Virus record (IMG/VR): IMGVR_UViG_3300037493_002267 | Coordinates: 1-30,934 of that record | Strand: one strand, 5' to 3' | Length of the DNA stretch: 30,934 bases | Source: a virus | Shown: in pieces, positions 6,885 to 27,477 of the stretch | Layout: each line of letters opens with the position of its first letter | Position numbering within the stretch: position 1 is the first letter of the stretch | The notes under the pieces: generated by a model | The model's input: only the letters and a program-made list of their open reading frames with translations | Told to the model about the DNA's origin: nothing | The model's database searches: none | Program-made: the position numbers and the translations under genes

Positions 6885-6925
6885 AAAACCTCGCCGGATT
6901 CCCCCTATCTTTCCGGCGGGGTTTT
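6885..6925 (+). terminator. Second terminator-like hairpin in the leader of the glycosyltransferase gene
   Basis: 14-bp stem with one wobble: AAAACCTCGCCGGA at 6885-6898 pairs with TCCGGCGGGGTTTT at 6912-6925, with a 13-nt loop. The stem's A/T arms make it work in both directions. It is either a backup for the capsid terminator or, given the promoter-like boxes immediately before it, an attenuator in the leader of the gene at 6960. Confidence 0.8.
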
Positions 6926-6959
6926 GCTATTATTAGGCCATCTACGCGAGAGGCATCTA

Positions 6960-8147
6960 ATGACTAAACTCACCGGCACGATCAGCTGGTTTTCAAATTC
7001 TGCAACCGCGCCAACTGGTTACGGCGTGCAAACTAATCAGGTTCTAAACCGGATGATTCGCGATGGCCTCGATGTTGCGGTGTTGAGCAACTATGGCCGC
7101 GAGGGTGTGAATGGCACTTGGAAATCTGAGTATGGTGAAGTGCCTGAGTATGCTCGAGGCGCTGAGGCTTACTCTCAGGATGTTACGCCGCTGAATCATC
7201 AGGATCATGTTGCCAAAGTAGAAAATGAAAAGGGCAAGCAACCTAACGCGCTTATCACTCTTTACGATGTTTGGATTATGCGCGGCGATAAGTACGCCGA
7301 TCTAAACATTGCATCGTGGACACCGATTGATCACAATCCGATTCCGCCGCTGGTTTTGGAGTGGTGCAAGCGCCCGAATGTTACGCCGATTGCGATGAGC
7401 CGTTGGGGTCAAGAGCAGCTGAAGATTCGCGGTGTTGAGAGTTTGTACATTCCGCACGCTGTTGAGCCGGTTTTTACACCGACTTTCTATCTTGGTGATT
7501 TGGATGTGCGCGAGTATATGGGCATCGATGCAGACACTTTCTTGGTTGGCATGAATTTTGCGAATAAAGCCAGCGGCGCTATTCATCGTAAAGCGGTGGG
7601 CGAGGCGTTTCTTGCTTTTGCTTTGTTTGCGAAAGATAAGCCCAATGCGGTGCTCTATTTACACACAGACATGTTTGGCAGTTTTGGTGGTTGGAAACTC
7701 GATCATCTGCTAATGGCCTGTGGGCTAACTAAGGATCAGGTCATTTTCTGCGATCAGGTCGCTTATCGTTACGGCTACTCTCAGGCTGAGTTAGCGGCGT
7801 TCTATACGGCAATGGATGTTTACCTGGCTATTAGTTATGGCGAGGGTTTTGGTGTTGGCACAATCGAGGCTCAGGCCTGTGGCACGCCCGTTATCGTTTC
7901 GGACATTTGCGCAAGTACTGAGCTGTGCGGTGATGGTTGGCTGGTTGAGTGCCAGCCGTTGTGGGATGATCCGCAAAAGTCTTGGTTTAGCGTGCCTAAC
8001 ATTCCGCAGACTGTGGCGGCTCTCAATGCCGCTTATGAGTCGCCTCGAGGTAAGTCACAAAAGGCGATTGATTTCGCTGAGGGTTATGGCGCTGAGCATG
8101 TTTGGCAAACTTATTGGCTGCCAGCGTTGGCCAAGATTCTAAAGTGA
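6960..8147 (+). CDS. Glycosyltransferase, GT4-like (GT-B fold)
   Basis: 395 aa from ATG 6960, chosen over an upstream TTG because GAGAGG lies at 6948-6953 and the upstream start falls in the hairpin. The C-terminal half carries the Glyco_trans_1 signature: AISYGEGFGVGTIEAQACGTPVIVSD (about 290-315), including the EX7E pair E295 and E303, which bind the nucleotide sugar. The N-terminus SWFSNSATAPTGYGVQT is typical of GT-B acceptor domains with a Gly-rich loop. No signal peptide is seen, so it should act in the host cytoplasm. The next gene overlaps by 4 nt. In this position it probably glycosylates virion proteins, an inference from known actinophage capsid and tail glycosylation. Confidence 0.85.
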   Translation: MTKLTGTISWFSNSATAPTGYGVQTNQVLNRMIRDGLDVAVLSNYGREGVNGTWKSEYGEVPEYARGAEAYSQDVTPLNHQDHVAKVENEKGKQPNALITLYDVWIMRGDKYADLNIASWTPIDHNPIPPLVLEWCKRPNVTPIAMSRWGQEQLKIRGVESLYIPHAVEPVFTPTFYLGDLDVREYMGIDADTFLVGMNFANKASGAIHRKAVGEAFLAFALFAKDKPNAVLYLHTDMFGSFGGWKLDHLLMACGLTKDQVIFCDQVAYRYGYSQAELAAFYTAMDVYLAISYGEGFGVGTIEAQACGTPVIVSDICASTELCGDGWLVECQPLWDDPQKSWFSVPNIPQTVAALNAAYESPRGKSQKAIDFAEGYGAEHVWQTYWLPALAKILK

Positions 8148-8791
8148 TTCCGGTATTGGGGTTCGCAACCCTGAAACGATTTGACCTGGCTGAGCGGTTG
8201 CTGGCCAGCATCGATTACCCGGTTGAGCATTTGGTGATTGTAAACAATTCAGGCTCTCGCACCTGGCAACCTAAGAAACCTGATCTAGTGCAGAATCTTT
8301 GGCACATTGAAGTGCCGTTTGGTTTGGGTTTGGTTGGCGCGTGGAATCTGATTGTGAAAGCCACACCCTATGCGCCGTATTGGGTTTTGGTGAATGATGA
8401 TGCCTGGTTTGAGCCTGGCCAGATGCAGCTCATCCCCGAGCAGGTGGACACTCAGGCGCTGAATTTCTTGGACATTGTGCCTCGATGGTCGGGTGTTGTA
8501 TTTGGCGAGGGCATGGTGGCAAAAGTCGGGCTTTATAGCGAAGATTTTTACCCGCTCTATTTTGATGATGATGATCTCGAGCGCCGGGTTGATTTGGCAG
8601 GTATAGACAAAAAATCTATACATTGCAAGATGGGCCACGATAACAGTTCTACGCTCAATAGCGGCTTTCAGGCATTCAATTCGGTAAGTTATGCCAATAA
8701 CTCTAAATTGCACGCTCAGAGAGCCGCACAGGGCCGTATAGAGGCATCTCTGTGGACACTAGAAACTAGGAGAGCAAACAGATGGGATTGA
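8144..8791 (+). CDS. Glycosyltransferase, GT2-like (GT-A fold)
   Basis: 215 aa from GTG 8144, which overlaps the previous stop (GTGA). A TTG 42 nt upstream is possible, but the family start PVLGFATLKRFDLAERLL fits GTG 8144. Features are VEHLVIVNNSG (about 27-37), the metal-binding-like VLVNDDAWFEPGQM with D85 and D86, and an acidic FDDDDLERRV near 144-153 that corresponds to the ED motif region of GT-A enzymes. It is shorter than most GT2 enzymes (about 250-300 aa). It probably transfers a sugar from a nucleotide sugar, with substrate unknown. It is part of the three-gene cassette 6960-9201. Confidence 0.75.
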   Translation: MIPVLGFATLKRFDLAERLLASIDYPVEHLVIVNNSGSRTWQPKKPDLVQNLWHIEVPFGLGLVGAWNLIVKATPYAPYWVLVNDDAWFEPGQMQLIPEQVDTQALNFLDIVPRWSGVVFGEGMVAKVGLYSEDFYPLYFDDDDLERRVDLAGIDKKSIHCKMGHDNSSTLNSGFQAFNSVSYANNSKLHAQRAAQGRIEASLWTLETRRANRWD

Positions 8792-9201
8792 TTTACACAG
8801 GTGGCACTTTTGACCTATTCCATGCCGGGCATGTGGCGTTTCTGCAACGCGCAGCCGAGCTGGGCGAGGTGGTTGTGGCCCTAAACACAGATGAGTTCAT
8901 TGTGGAGTACAAAAGTAAAGCGCCGGTCATGACTTACGCTGAGCGCCGCGCGGTGTTGCTGGGTTGCAAGTGGGTTAGCCAGGTTGTGCCTAACGCTGGT
9001 GGCGCTGATTCGCGCATTGCCATCGATCAAGTCAATCCCGATTACATCATTGTGGGCAGCGACTGGGCCAGGCGCGACTACTACTACCAGATGGGTTTCG
9101 ATCAGGATTGGTTGGATGAGCGCGGCATTGGTTTGATTTACATTCCGTATACCGATGGCATTTCGACTACCGCCATCAAACAAAGACTTTCTAAGCGGTA
9201 A
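8782..9201 (+). CDS. Cytidylyltransferase-like nucleotidyltransferase (TagD family)
   Basis: 139 aa, the same length as glycerol-3-phosphate cytidylyltransferases. The N-terminus has the family motif YTGGTFDLFHAGH (residues 5-17) with the HxGH pair H14 and H17 that binds the nucleotide phosphates. The C-terminus has GISTTAIKQRL (about 124-134), matching the ISTT motif. The likely reaction is CTP plus a phosphorylated alcohol or sugar to CDP-alcohol plus diphosphate. The substrate cannot be told from sequence, since related enzymes also make ADP-heptose or CDP-ethanolamine. It overlaps the GT2 gene by 10 nt, so it probably supplies an activated donor for the neighbouring transferases. Confidence 0.85.
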   Translation: MGLIYTGGTFDLFHAGHVAFLQRAAELGEVVVALNTDEFIVEYKSKAPVMTYAERRAVLLGCKWVSQVVPNAGGADSRIAIDQVNPDYIIVGSDWARRDYYYQMGFDQDWLDERGIGLIYIPYTDGISTTAIKQRLSKR

Positions 9202-19605: not shown

Positions 19606-19884
19606 TTATGAAATAAGCCGCCCTCGATCTTCAGGGGTTAGGCCGCCATAGATTCCGTACGGCTCGGCAGCCAGGATTGCATAGTTTCGGCATTGCTCGA
19701 TGAGTGGGCAGGTGTTGCACAATTCTTTGGCTATCTTTTCGGCCATGCGTTGCATCACATTATCGGGCTGATCTTCAGGAAAGAATAGATCGGGCGACTG
19801 CTCGCAGGGTACACCGCCAGGCGTTTCTAACACCAATTCCATTAGGCGGTCTTTGGCGTTTTGTATTTGTCGGTGGTCACTCAC
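19606..19884 (-). CDS. whiB: WhiB-family iron-sulfur transcription regulator
   Basis: 92 aa from GTG 19884. The four Cys ligands of the [4Fe-4S] cluster are C27, C56, C59 and C65 (PCEQ and CNTCPLIEQC), followed by the turn GIYGGLTPEDR (about 77-87) that binds the principal sigma factor in this family. WhiB proteins are restricted to actinobacteria and their phages. Phage copies can repress host genes such as whiB2 and affect septation or superinfection. It is divergent from the recombination operon with only 32 bp between starts, so the promoters probably overlap. Confidence 0.92.
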   Translation of the reverse strand: MSDHRQIQNAKDRLMELVLETPGGVPCEQSPDLFFPEDQPDNVMQRMAEKIAKELCNTCPLIEQCRNYAILAAEPYGIYGGLTPEDRGRLIS

Positions 19885-20789: not shown

Positions 20790-21006
20790 CAATGTTTGGG
20801 AATCGCAACTGGAAATCAATCAGATTTTCGATAAGCGTATTGCTTTGGCTGGCGATCAGGTTACGGCTCTCACCGAGCTGGTGATTGCTCAGGGCAAACT
20901 GATTCAAGACTTGGTTGAGTTGGTCAAACCGACAACACCGACAACACCGACAACACCGACAAGCTGCCAGGCACGCCATTGTGCATGTGCAGATGGTGAG
21001 ATGTAA
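20782..21006 (+). CDS. Small protein with Pro/Thr repeat and Cys-rich tail
   Basis: 74 aa. Residues 1-48 are helical and charged (QLEINQIFDKRIALAGDQVT, LTELVIAQGKLIQDLVELV). Then comes a PTT repeat (PTTPTTPTTPTS) and a short Cys/His tail (CQARHCACADGEM). AAGAAAGG inside the upstream gene supports ATG 20782, giving an 8-nt overlap. It lies between the exonuclease and the putative annealing protein, so it may be an accessory factor. The short Pro/Thr linker could vary in length between isolates. Function unknown. Confidence 0.7.
   Translation: MSNNVWESQLEINQIFDKRIALAGDQVTALTELVIAQGKLIQDLVELVKPTTPTTPTTPTSCQARHCACADGEM
20929..20962 (+). repeat. 9-bp tandem repeat (CCGACAACA), 3.8 copies
   Basis: CCGACAACA is repeated at 20929-20937, 20938-20946 and 20947-20955, with a partial fourth copy to 20962. 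It encodes the Pro-Thr-Thr linker of the 74-aa protein. It is in frame, so copy number changes would not disrupt the gene. Confidence 0.85.
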
Positions 21007-22680: not shown

Positions 22681-23334
22681 ATGAGCATCGAAATTCAAAA
22701 CGCTGTTTGGCGTGAATCAAAATCATCGGGGCGTGCCAGGCTAACGCTGCTCGCAATCGCAGATCATCAAGGCGAAATTGGCGCATGGCCATCAATCGAA
22801 ACTTTGGCCCGAATGGTAAACGCATCTGAGCGGTCTGTGCAGCGCGACATAAAAGAGCTGGCAGATTTGGGTGAGCTGATTGTTTTGGTGCAGCAAGCGC
22901 CATCTCGAGGTCAATACAAATCGAATCTTTACTGGGTCAATTTGCCGTCTGTGGCAAAAGCATCAGGGGTGACAAAAATGCGCTCAGGGGTGACAGAATC
23001 GACTTCAGGGGTGACAGATTTGGCATCAGGGGTGACAACAGATGGCGTACTAACCCTTATAGAACCATTACTTAAACCTAATAGAAACGCAGCTCAAAAA
23101 ACTCTTGATGAATCTTGGCAACCTGGTCAAAACTTATTAGCCATGTTTGCAACTAAATGGCCTCTACTAAAAGCCAATGAAGAAACTGAGGCGTTTATTC
23201 TTTACCATCGAGGCAAAGGGTCAAAGTTTGTGGATTGGGATTTGACTTACCAGGCTTGGATGAATCGGGCGCAAAAGTGGGCTGCCGAAAAGCAACCGGC
23301 TCAACCCGAAAGAAAGATTTTGGGTGATTTCTGA
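22681..23334 (+). CDS. Helix-turn-helix replication initiation-like protein
   Basis: 217 aa. The N-terminal 70 residues match HTH_36-type winged helix domains of phage and plasmid replication proteins: SGRARLTLLAIADHQGEIGAWPSIETLARMVNASERSVQRDIKEL. The C-terminal 110 residues are helical, with FVDWDLTYQAWMNRAQKWAAEK, similar to DnaD- or O-type C-terminal parts. The linker holds SGVT at residues 95-98, 102-105, 109-112 and 116-119, encoded by four perfect DNA repeats that are probably origin iterons. The gene is followed by a DnaB helicase gene (TGATG overlap), like lambda O and P with origin inside O. Confidence 0.8.
   Translation: MSIEIQNAVWRESKSSGRARLTLLAIADHQGEIGAWPSIETLARMVNASERSVQRDIKELADLGELIVLVQQAPSRGQYKSNLYWVNLPSVAKASGVTKMRSGVTESTSGVTDLASGVTTDGVLTLIEPLLKPNRNAAQKTLDESWQPGQNLLAMFATKWPLLKANEETEAFILYHRGKGSKFVDWDLTYQAWMNRAQKWAAEKQPAQPERKILGDF
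22963..23110 (+). repeat. Probable replication origin: four 12-bp iterons and an adjacent A/T-rich stretch
   Basis: TCAGGGGTGACA occurs exactly at 22963, 22984, 23005 and 23026, an unbroken 21-bp period, about two helical turns. The nine bases between copies differ, so selection acts on the 12-mer. Roughly 23050-23110 is about two thirds A/T and would serve as the unwinding region. All lies inside the gene of the probable initiator, next to the helicase gene, the arrangement known from lambda. Because 21 is a multiple of three, each iteron encodes the peptide SGVT. Confidence 0.75.
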
Positions 23335-24575
23335 TGTATGAGGCAAAAGCCGAGAGGCTGATCATCGGTGCCATTTTGCTAAGTCAAGGCGATTTCTTGG
23401 CTGATACCAAACTGATACCAGATGACTTCAGAAACGAAACTGAGCGCGAGATGTTTGTTTTGATGCGCGCCATGCGTGAGGCTGGCGAGGGCATCGATGT
23501 TATTACCGTAACGGCCAAGAAACCGAGCATGTCTGTTTATTTGTGGGAATGCACCGGCGAGGTGGTAACACACAAAAACGCCGATTTCTATGAGCAACTA
23601 ATTCACGATCGCAACGCGCGCATCGCAATGCACTCGGTTGGGTTGTCGCTTTCGGATGCTGCGCAACGGCCTGAAGATCATGTTGATGCGACCATTGATT
23701 TCGCTCGAGTCAAGATTGATGACCTGGCTGAAAAGCGTTTGCATGACCCGGTGCAGTTTGTTTCTGAGCTGGTATTGCCGGCGGTGCAACACTTGGATTC
23801 TGAGCCAGATTTTCACGCATCCGAATGGGCGCATCTCAATGAATTTATTGGCGGTTTTCGACCTGGTGCGCTCTACATCATCGGCGCGCGCCCGGCAGTT
23901 GGCAAATCGGTTGTGGCAGTAAACATCGCATACCAGTTGGCAAAACATGGCGCAGTAAGTTTTCATTCGCTCGAGATGAGTAAGCGCGAGATTGTAAATC
24001 GCCTATTTGCCAGCGTTTGCAATGTGAGCATGGATCACCTCGAAAAGCGCACACTTACCGATTTGGACTGGGAAAGAATCCGCGCGAATCGTGATGCCGT
24101 TGGGCGACCTATCGCCATCGCAGATAAGTCGGGGCAGACTTTGGCTGAGGTGCGAGCATTTGCCAGGCAGGTGAGTCGCAAGAAACCGTTGGCTGCCATA
24201 GTTGTGGACTATCTGCAGCTCATGCAAGATACGGATCGTGGCAAGAGTCGCTACGAATCGGTTACGGCCATCTCTAACGGTCTAAAGATTATGGCGCGCG
24301 ATCTCGAGGTGCCAGTCATTGCGTTGGCTCAGCTCAACCGGCAGATCGAGGGCCGTAAAGATACTTCACCTGGCTTGGCTGATTTGCGCGACTCTGGCTC
24401 GATTGAGCAAGATGCCGATGTGGTTATTTTGCTAAGCCGCGAGCAGTCTGATACTGATGGCAAGGAAGAAAAGTCAAAGCTGGTGCTAAACATTGCCAAA
24501 AATAGGCATGGCAAGACTGGACATTTTGCCCTCAAGTTTGATGGTTTGTTTGCGAGAGTCACACAAATTCGCTAA
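23334..24575 (+). CDS. dnaB: DnaB-type replicative helicase
   Basis: 413 aa with an N-terminal DnaB_N-like domain (EAKAERLIIGAILLSQGDF ... MFVLMRAM) and a RecA-like C-terminal domain. Walker A is GARPAVGKS (184-192), followed by FHSLEMSKREIVNRLFA. Walker B is IVVDYLQLM (289-297). The last motif includes LAQLNRQIEG, LRDSGSIEQDADVVILLSR. Length is normal for phage DnaB. It unwinds DNA at the fork 5' to 3' and is probably loaded at the iterons just upstream. The start overlaps the previous gene's stop. Confidence 0.95.
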   Translation: MYEAKAERLIIGAILLSQGDFLADTKLIPDDFRNETEREMFVLMRAMREAGEGIDVITVTAKKPSMSVYLWECTGEVVTHKNADFYEQLIHDRNARIAMHSVGLSLSDAAQRPEDHVDATIDFARVKIDDLAEKRLHDPVQFVSELVLPAVQHLDSEPDFHASEWAHLNEFIGGFRPGALYIIGARPAVGKSVVAVNIAYQLAKHGAVSFHSLEMSKREIVNRLFASVCNVSMDHLEKRTLTDLDWERIRANRDAVGRPIAIADKSGQTLAEVRAFARQVSRKKPLAAIVVDYLQLMQDTDRGKSRYESVTAISNGLKIMARDLEVPVIALAQLNRQIEGRKDTSPGLADLRDSGSIEQDADVVILLSREQSDTDGKEEKSKLVLNIAKNRHGKTGHFALKFDGLFARVTQIR

Positions 24576-25951: not shown

Positions 25952-26137
25952 ATGAAATTTACAGAAATCTTGATGATTTTTGGCGGCATGGGCTTTCTTG
26001 GTTTGTGCTTTTGGTTGGGCGATAACGGATACGCGAAAGTGGTTGGCGCGATCGCCATCATCATCATTGGCGTATTTCTTATTGCAGCTCAGATTCACGC
26101 AATTCGTTCATCACGAATCAAGCGAGGTCGCAAATGA
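25952..26137 (+). CDS. Small two-helix membrane protein, first gene of the small-gene operon
   Basis: 61 aa. Hydrophobic segments are about 6-24 (ILMIFGGMGFLGLCFWLGD) and 28-48 (KVVGAIAIIIIGVFLIAAQI), and the C-terminus is strongly basic (RSSRIKRGRK), placing it inside the cell. It has the best promoter and ribosome site in this part of the genome, so probably high expression. Role unknown. It could act on the host envelope or membrane potential, or in defence against other phages. Confidence 0.75.
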   Translation: MKFTEILMIFGGMGFLGLCFWLGDNGYAKVVGAIAIIIIGVFLIAAQIHAIRSSRIKRGRK

Positions 26138-26322
26138 GTAAAACTGATTTCACTTATGAGCAGGTCGAGTTGGCTGTGCGCGAGGCATCTAACACCGCTT
26201 ATGAGATGGGCAAGCTCGAGGCTGAGCAGCGCATACTCAACTTTCTTGATTCGATGCTTTTGCACCCGGCTAAACCGAGCCTCGATCTCATCATTGAGCG
26301 TTTGCGAGGTGGGCTGAAGTGA
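26134..26322 (+). CDS. Small helical protein of the tandem G-x-ERERI family
   Basis: 62 aa, MSKTDFTYEQVELAVREASN. The part AYEMGKLEAEQRILNFLDSML aligns with the motif Y-x-x-G-x(3-5)-E-(R/Q)-x-R-I-(I/L)-x-x-(L/I) that recurs in the four following family members. No Cys, membrane segment or enzyme motif is present. Genes overlap by 4 nt on each side. The family is widespread in actinophages in my experience, with unknown function. Confidence 0.65.
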   Translation: MSKTDFTYEQVELAVREASNTAYEMGKLEAEQRILNFLDSMLLHPAKPSLDLIIERLRGGLK

Positions 26323-26552
26323 TTGACCTAACTAAACCTGAAGTGCGCCAGGCTTACCTGATTGGTGTTGAGGCCGGCAAAATGAATTACGCTGCCGAGT
26401 TGGATCGGGTGGCGGTTGTGACTGAAACTCGCATTGTGCGCCAACTGGACATGTTTCGCCGCGAGTGTAATGCTCGGCGGTCTACTGCGCGTGGGCGTGT
26501 AGTTGCTCAATGTATTGCCCTTATCAAGGGTGAGGAGTTTGTTGATGATTGA
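26319..26552 (+). CDS. Small protein, divergent member of the tandem family
   Basis: 77 aa from GTG 26319 (GTGA overlap). It contains AYLIGVEAGKMNYAAELDRV and ends RVVAQCIALIKGEEFVDD. The final IALIKG is shared with the gene at 26747, and the Y-x-x-G near the start is shared with the family. Basic Arg-rich segment RRECNARRSTARGRV in the middle. It may bind nucleic acid, but this is only suggested by charge. Confidence 0.6.
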   Translation: MIDLTKPEVRQAYLIGVEAGKMNYAAELDRVAVVTETRIVRQLDMFRRECNARRSTARGRVVAQCIALIKGEEFVDD

Positions 26553-26754
26553 TGTGCATGGCGAGCCGGTTCGCGAGAATTATCGCCGGCAGGGTGAGGT
26601 GCGTGAGCGTGAGCGCATCATTGCACTTATCAAGCGCCGTATTTGTTTTGATGCTTTAGCCGATGATGATGGGCGCTGTTCGCATCATGGCGGCAAGTGT
26701 TATGACTTGCGCGAGCTGATTACCCGACTACAGAAAGAGGCACCAAATGTCTGA
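26545..26754 (+). CDS. Small protein of the tandem family with a Cys/His cluster
   Basis: 69 aa from ATG 26545, with TGAGGAG shortly upstream. YRRQGEVRERERIIALIKRR is the clearest copy of the family motif. It is followed by RICFDALADDDGRCSHHGGKCYDLRELI, where Cys/His residues (ICF, CSHHGGKC) could bind a metal. It overlaps the preceding gene by 8 nt. Confidence 0.65.
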   Translation: MIDVHGEPVRENYRRQGEVRERERIIALIKRRICFDALADDDGRCSHHGGKCYDLRELITRLQKEAPNV

Positions 26755-26998
26755 TAAGAGAAAAGAAATCTGGGAAACCCTAGATAGTGCTTTGGCTAAA
26801 TTTGTTTCTAATGCCTATGCAACAGGTCAAAGTGATGAGCGTGAGCGCATTCTTGAACTGCTAACCGATTTCGATAATGAAAAGTATTACGAATGGCTCA
26901 AGTCAGATAATCAAGATTGGCCTGATTACGCGCAAACTGCTATTGGTTTGCGTTTGGCTATCGCTCTTATCAAAGGGGTAAAAAATGGGAATGTCTAG
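26747..26998 (+). CDS. Small protein of the tandem family
   Basis: 83 aa. AYATGQSDERERILELLTDF is the family motif, followed by aromatic/acidic YEWLKSDNQDWPDYAQTAIG and a final LAIALIKGVKNGNV. It overlaps the previous gene by 8 nt and the 34-aa basic peptide by 14 nt. Function unknown. Confidence 0.65.
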   Translation: MSDKRKEIWETLDSALAKFVSNAYATGQSDERERILELLTDFDNEKYYEWLKSDNQDWPDYAQTAIGLRLAIALIKGVKNGNV

Positions 26999-27089
26999 CA
27001 ACTTCATTCAATGGCCAACACACCGCCGGAAAGCCGCCGTTCGCCGCCGTATGCGCCGATCACGCCGTAAAGGGTTCACTAATGCTTGA
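26985..27089 (+). CDS. Arginine-rich 34-aa peptide
   Basis: 34 aa from ATG 26985 with AAAGGGG at 26972-26978. The second half (THRRKAAVRRRMRRSRRKGF) has 11 Arg/Lys within 18 residues, resembling RNA- or DNA-binding Arg-rich motifs or a ribosomal-like basic peptide. Upstream and downstream genes overlap its ends by 14 and 8 nt, which is consistent with the rest of the coupled chain. The alternative is a non-coding spacer, but the ribosome site and fit are good. Confidence 0.55.
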   Translation: MGMSSNFIQWPTHRRKAAVRRRMRRSRRKGFTNA

Positions 27090-27477
27090 GCCAGAGATGA
27101 ATTGGGATGTGAATCCGGCTTGGTTTCAGCCAACGGTGAATCAGAATGAGTACACTCAGGGTTTCTTCAAGGGCCGCGACTATGAGCGAAAGCGCATCAT
27201 TGCCATCTTGAAAGATTGGGATTTGAATCTGCGCTGGGATTGGGTGGACATTTACCGCCTAATCGATGAGGGCATGGATTACCGCCAACTCACCATGTCG
27301 CCGGCGTTGCTCGAGGATTACAAAGTTAGAGCTGCACAGATCGAGCGTGAGCGCCTATTGGATGCGGTCAAGGGTTACTTTGATTCGATTGCACCGGCTC
27401 ACGATGCTGAGGGCGGCCACGCCCATGCGATCATCGAAACCGCCGTTATGGACTTACTCAAAGGGGCAAATAACTGA
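27082..27477 (+). CDS. Protein with two copies of the ERERI-like motif
   Basis: 131 aa. YTQGFFKGRDYERKRIIAILKDW (about 24-46) and AAQIERERLLDAVKGYFD (about 84-101) each match the small-protein family motif, so the gene may be a fused duplication. A VMDLLKGANN end matches the IALIKG endings of others. It is charged and aromatic (WDLNLRWDWVDIYRLIDEG). No catalytic residues are seen. The start overlaps the basic-peptide gene. Unknown function. Confidence 0.65.
   Translation: MLEPEMNWDVNPAWFQPTVNQNEYTQGFFKGRDYERKRIIAILKDWDLNLRWDWVDIYRLIDEGMDYRQLTMSPALLEDYKVRAAQIERERLLDAVKGYFDSIAPAHDAEGGHAHAIIETAVMDLLKGANN

Follow-up and report, generated by a model that had tools for sequence, protein, structure and literature searches.

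A replication origin very probably lies inside the gene of its own initiator protein in the virus genome analyzed here, a stretch of 30,934 nucleotides (30.9 kb; the window) from IMG/VR record IMGVR_UViG_3300037493_002267. The origin would comprise an array of four short direct repeats (iterons), which are the predicted binding sites of the encoded protein, and the A/T-rich stretch that follows them. The evidence comes from sequence comparison: the array itself, its conservation as DNA, a second set of repeats in the A/T-rich stretch, the exchange of iterons jointly with the DNA-binding domain, and a protein linker, encoded at the same place, that is predicted to be disordered.

The 12-mer TCAGGGGTGACA occurs on the plus strand at 22963–22974, 22984–22995, 23005–23016 and 23026–23037, with a constant step of 21 bp and with spacers that differ. 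Exact matching therefore upheld the original prediction as to the four perfect repeats and the differing bases between them. The array is the top tandem repeat of the window (score 86 in Tandem Repeats Finder), and there is no fifth copy with two or fewer mismatches on either strand of the whole window. A repeat detector that uses 11-mers and allows one mismatch was applied to the initiator gene and to controls. Four copies were observed, compared to a maximum of two in 20 codon shuffles and a mean of 1.85 (maximum of three) in 20 shuffles where synonymous codons were permuted and the protein was left unchanged. The DnaB and terminase genes of the window and lambda P each gave two copies or fewer, and three of the four known iterons were recovered from lambda O, the positive control.

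The gene at 22681–23334 (plus strand) encodes a protein of 217 residues with a winged-helix N-terminal domain, a disordered linker and a DnaT-like C-terminal domain, as assigned by Pfam, PHROG and an AlphaFold2 model made with 45 relatives as input. The N-terminal match is to HTH_36 (PF13730; E 4.5e-10, 39.6 bits versus a cut-off of 25) and spans residues 16–64 (22726–22872). It includes the predicted recognition helix, residues 50–63 (22828–22869), which carries R51 and R55. In the model, the N-domain is confident (residues 1–90), the linker is predicted to be disordered (codons 97–135, 22969–23085; pLDDT < 50) and coincides with the iterons and the A/T-rich stretch, and the C-domain is helical. 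This last region (residues 141–201, 23101–23283) is the proposed helicase contact, and its match to DnaT (PF17948, E 7.5e-4) is below the Pfam gathering score. The product also matches PHROG families named replication initiation O-like. The start of the phage DnaB-like replicative helicase gene (23334–24575, plus strand; PF03796, E 4.6e-76; PHROG 19) overlaps the end of the initiator gene. Both the placement of the array in the linker of an HTH replication protein and the DnaB neighbor had been predicted, and both were confirmed by these matches and the model. A PDB sequence search found no relative, and a PDB fold search returned generic winged-helix matches only, none below E 1e-3; the weak matches include the initiator structures 4pql (E 3.6e-3) and 4pt7 (E 1.4e-2).

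The array is immediately followed by a probable DNA unwinding element at 23050–23110 (plus strand), identified by composition and repeat counts. As had been predicted, this stretch is A/T-rich (66%), and it contains AACC(A/C)TTA-type repeats at 23052, 23063 and 23075. In 60 relatives, the mean A+T content is 65% in the stretch, 45% in the array and 51% over the genes as a whole. The sequence AACCATTA, with one mismatch allowed, is present at 2.18 copies in the 75 bp past the array in 61 relatives, a 37-fold enrichment over the rest of these genes (0.058 copies per 75 bp). These copies follow one another at steps of 11–12 bp and fall mainly in two reading frames, and weaker forms of the A/T repeat are found in relatives with other iterons.

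The comparison of 70 distinct viral relatives shows that what is conserved at the repeats is DNA rather than peptide. Here, the 10-mer AGGGGTGACA, which is at 22965–22974 in the first iteron and is not palindromic, is present in 190 copies, every one of them in the linker. The base before it is C in 183/190 copies and a T one base further out is found in only 133/190, so the first base of TCAGGGGTGACA is less a part of the unit. The 12-mer had been proposed to be conserved itself; the repeat is indeed kept as DNA, but its core is the 10-mer and the leading T is variable. The exact 21-bp period likewise stands for the window and is relaxed in the relatives, where most steps are 21 bp and others are 12, 20, 22, 23, 30 and 42 bp, mostly near whole helical turns.

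The reading frames of the copies are informative as well. The 190 copies are divided into 181 that read GVT and nine in the second frame; the third frame would create a TGA stop. All 181 GVT copies are written GGG GTG ACA, codons that account for 13%, 28% and 25%, respectively, of the choices elsewhere in the same genes. When the relatives were clustered at 80% identity, 71/71 GVT copies in 20 genes used these three codons, for which the chance per copy is 0.0095. Eight relatives have copies in two frames. Across the relatives, copies in other frames encode RGDT, QGGQ, SGWTD and others. Four further relatives, from one clade, carry the variant repeat TCAGGGTGGACA, mostly at 22-bp steps, and because of this step their arrays cycle through all three frames and encode unrelated peptides. 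In addition, variants are concerted, with most or all copies in an array alike, such as four copies of GGGGAGACA in one relative and mostly GAGGTGACA in another. It had been set out beforehand that free synonymous variation under a fixed SGVT peptide would speak against an origin; this is contradicted, as the DNA is constant even across frame changes. As part of the origin reading, and with the same high confidence, we propose that the sequence of the iteron-encoded linker peptide serves no conserved role.

Natural swaps of initiator plus probable origin have occurred, in which the sites are exchanged with the DNA-binding domain as one cassette. The window and relative L010 are mostly 77–97% identical over more than 1 kb upstream and 80–87% identical across the C-domain, and only 33–58% identical over the HTH, the iterons and the A/T-rich stretch; the array of L010 consists of AAACCATGAACTCTGT-type repeats. 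Similarly, the relatives L002 and L089 are 100% identical in the C-domain and 47% identical in the N-domain, and their iterons differ.

The sequence of the recognition helix also varies with that of the repeat. In an alignment of 146 sequences with AGGGGTGACA arrays, which includes a few truncated or non-HTH frames and where the counts ignore relatedness, 143 have R51 and 143 have R55. Residues 54–56 are R-R-K with AGGGTGGACA arrays, R-T/L/E with AGGGTGGAAG or AGGGCGGAA arrays, H-D-A with TGAACTCTGT arrays and Q-N-K with AGGGGTGCAC arrays. Small iteron changes, namely TGAGGTGACA, AGAGGTGACA and AGGGGAGACA, occur without a change in the helix. The pairing of helix residues and iterons is a lead and not a demonstration.

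The motif was also sought by DNA alone, as two AGGGGTGACA copies 21 bp apart in viral contigs. At least 116 readable viral loci have this pair; among the matches listed all are in an open frame, and nearly all are in the linker of an HTH protein whose helix has the R...R pattern. Many of the listed loci are close relatives and six are not (L152, L157, L181, L192, L218 and L239). These six, together with four genome examples, all have a Pfam match to HTH_36 (10/10). Cellular genomes contain 35 paired loci, 11 of them in HTH_36-type genes, with the HTH in some read from the translation rather than from Pfam. These 11 genes come from Shewanella, Jiangella, Microbacterium, Rhizobium, Streptosporangium, Tersicoccus, Phycisphaeraceae and Parvularculaceae, and the HTH_36 genes with AGGGGTGACA arrays from Shewanella, Rhizobium, Streptosporangium and a planctomycete have two arginines in the recognition helix. 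In the gene from the Parvularculaceae MAG (L302, 1917–2840), the motif is reversed within the coding sequence. The idea that every cellular pair marks an initiator was rejected, as 24 of the 35 loci appear not to lie in HTH_36 genes; seven bacterial pairs are in tandem repeats where no HTH_36 gene was found at the site. A protein-alignment scan of cellular genomes found no relative.

Other linker arrays are present in isolated phages with HTH_36 initiators: Vibrio phage Va_PF430-3_p42, Sphingopyxis phage VSN-002, Microcystis phage Mvi-Yong1342-1, Arthrobacter phages KellEzio and LittleTokyo (the latter with CAGGGGTGCAC), Salmonella phage S107 and Klebsiella phage ST13-OXA48phi12.5. A Sphingopyxis phage gene (L304, 1501–2136) and a Microcystis phage gene (L305, 1501–2175) have in common the iteron ACCCCCGNA, which is repeated at steps of 17 and 22 bp and changes frame. 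In the Arthrobacter phages Decurro and Arielagos, which have related proteins, the repeat detector found no array, a weak negative because the same detector finds only two copies in P22 gene 18. Tentatively, and with somewhat less than even confidence, we propose a portable cassette in which HTH_36 initiators with R51 and R55 read about the same iteron, AGGGGTGACA, across phages and mobile elements of several phyla, and in which residues 54–56 predict the changed iterons.

From these features we infer how the origin could function. The winged-helix N-domain of the 22681–23334 product would bind the four iterons through their AGGGGTGACA core and, because the step equals two helical turns, from one face of the DNA. 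The assembled complex would then open the neighboring A/T-rich stretch at 23050–23110 with its own 11–12 bp repeats, and the DnaT-like C-domain would deliver the phage DnaB, the product of the next gene downstream, to the opened strands. GC skew, which had also been proposed as a check, does not mark an origin and is uninformative here: it is positive almost throughout the window, with no switch near 23 kb, and nearly all genes are on one strand.

Sites bound by the initiator could instead be operators, through which the protein represses or pauses transcription of its own operon while replication starts elsewhere. Initiators often autoregulate, and as the sites would be bound by the same protein, their exchange with the HTH domain would be expected in this case too. 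However, the array lies some 280 bp into the gene, no copy is near a promoter or elsewhere in the window, and an operator would leave the adjacent conserved A/T repeats and the two-turn spacing unexplained; we consider this reading very unlikely. Short phased repeat arrays are also known to serve in partition and packaging, which as general knowledge lends something to the idea that a site for packaging, partition or recombination, bound by another protein, happens to be in the initiator gene. Such a coincidence is extremely improbable, as the array goes together with the HTH domain of its own gene across unrelated phages and is exchanged with it.

Two further explanations do without a binding site and are given next to no weight. 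If selection kept the SGVT linker peptide, with DNA identity being secondary, most copies would share a frame and give SGVT-like units, as they do; but this reading is contradicted by the fixed synonymous codons and by the frame changes described above. It also conflicts with the reversed motif in the HTH_36 gene of L302 and with the predicted disorder of the linker. A functionless tandem repeat produced by recent slippage would fit the copy number of three to five in most relatives. It is contradicted by conservation in distant relatives: AGGGGTGACA is kept at approximately 50% protein identity, the 10-mer being invariant while the spacers differ.

Several other features of the window were observed. 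A WhiB-like transcription factor gene is located at 19606–19884 on the minus strand (PF02467, E 4e-16) and points to an actinobacterial host. Genes for a glycosyltransferase of group 1 and a cytidylyltransferase-like protein are found among the structural genes (6924–9201) and may function in decoration of the capsid or of the host surface. A run of short genes at 26134–27477 encodes products with a common E-x-E-R-x-I/L-like motif (GEVRERERIIALIK, GQSDERERILELL, GRDYERKRIIAIL), and by sequence this run looks like a diverged tandem family. Finally, a perfect 9-bp tandem repeat, ACCGACAAC, is present in 3.9 copies at 20928–20962, within a small gene.

If the initiator gene does carry its own origin, then a phased repeat in the initiator linker, followed by A/T-rich repeats, provides a way to find origins in uncultured phages with HTH_36 initiators. 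Because a single gene holds both the recognition helix and its sites, which are swapped as a unit, the natural variants can serve directly to test how winged helices recognize DNA and whether unrelated phages have replication specificity in common. Should the cassette proposal be true, unrelated phages that share an iteron could cross-recognize or interfere with each other's origins.

The repeat had been called undescribed, and no paper in the literature searched ties the motif GGGGTGACA to iterons; however, iterons that are specific to their initiator are an established theme (PMC8022706). Neither the repeat nor its recurrence across phyla in company with HTH_36 initiators appears in that literature. 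The origin was also called lambda-type, which is correct for the layout, and the mechanism proposed here likewise matches that of lambda ori. In lambda, four iterons are positioned mid initiator gene and are followed by an A/T-rich tract, and the DNA-binding domain is N-terminal (PMC5043065, PMC7466680; annotation of NC_001416). Membership in the lambda family fails, as the initiator family differs and the iterons are not inverted repeats. Lambda O and P22 gp18 both match PF04492 in Pfam, whereas the window protein is HTH_36 and has no Pfam match to PF04492. Similarly, lambda iterons are inverted repeats of 18–19 bp that are bound by dimers (PMC5043065), whereas those of the window are non-palindromic direct repeats of 10–12 bp. 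Lambda uses the loader P and host DnaB, while the window has a phage dnaB downstream.

In module layout, phages P22 and L are even closer to the window than lambda is. There, iterons inside the initiator gene are followed by a DnaB-type helicase gene of the phage (genes 18 and 12). The repeats of P22 measure approximately 20 bp and those of L are TGTCCAACGGA, so that each initiator has its own (PMC8022706).

For the N-domain, the position of the origin and the exchange, the likeness is to the staphylococcal plasmid pPR9 of the pSK41 family. The N-domain of its Rep is pfam13730 and the origin is in the corresponding part of rep. A unit of approximately 500 bp, comprising N-domain and origin, replaced that of pSK41 while the C-domain stayed, and the mini-replicon replicates (PMC5703833). 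The window likewise has a PF13730 N-domain, an iteron array in the linker region and co-exchange of domain and origin. Unlike the phage, pPR9 is a plasmid; it belongs to Gram-positive cocci, and its C-domain is of the RepA_N type. RepA of pSK41 has the same layout, with a winged helix, a dispensable linker and four Rep boxes in the middle of its coding region (PMC5703833); its box sequence is different, and the Pfam matches of the window protein up to E 1 include no RepA_N domain (PF06970). As a kind, the initiator origin located within its gene is already known, from lambda, P22, L, pSK41 and pPR9.
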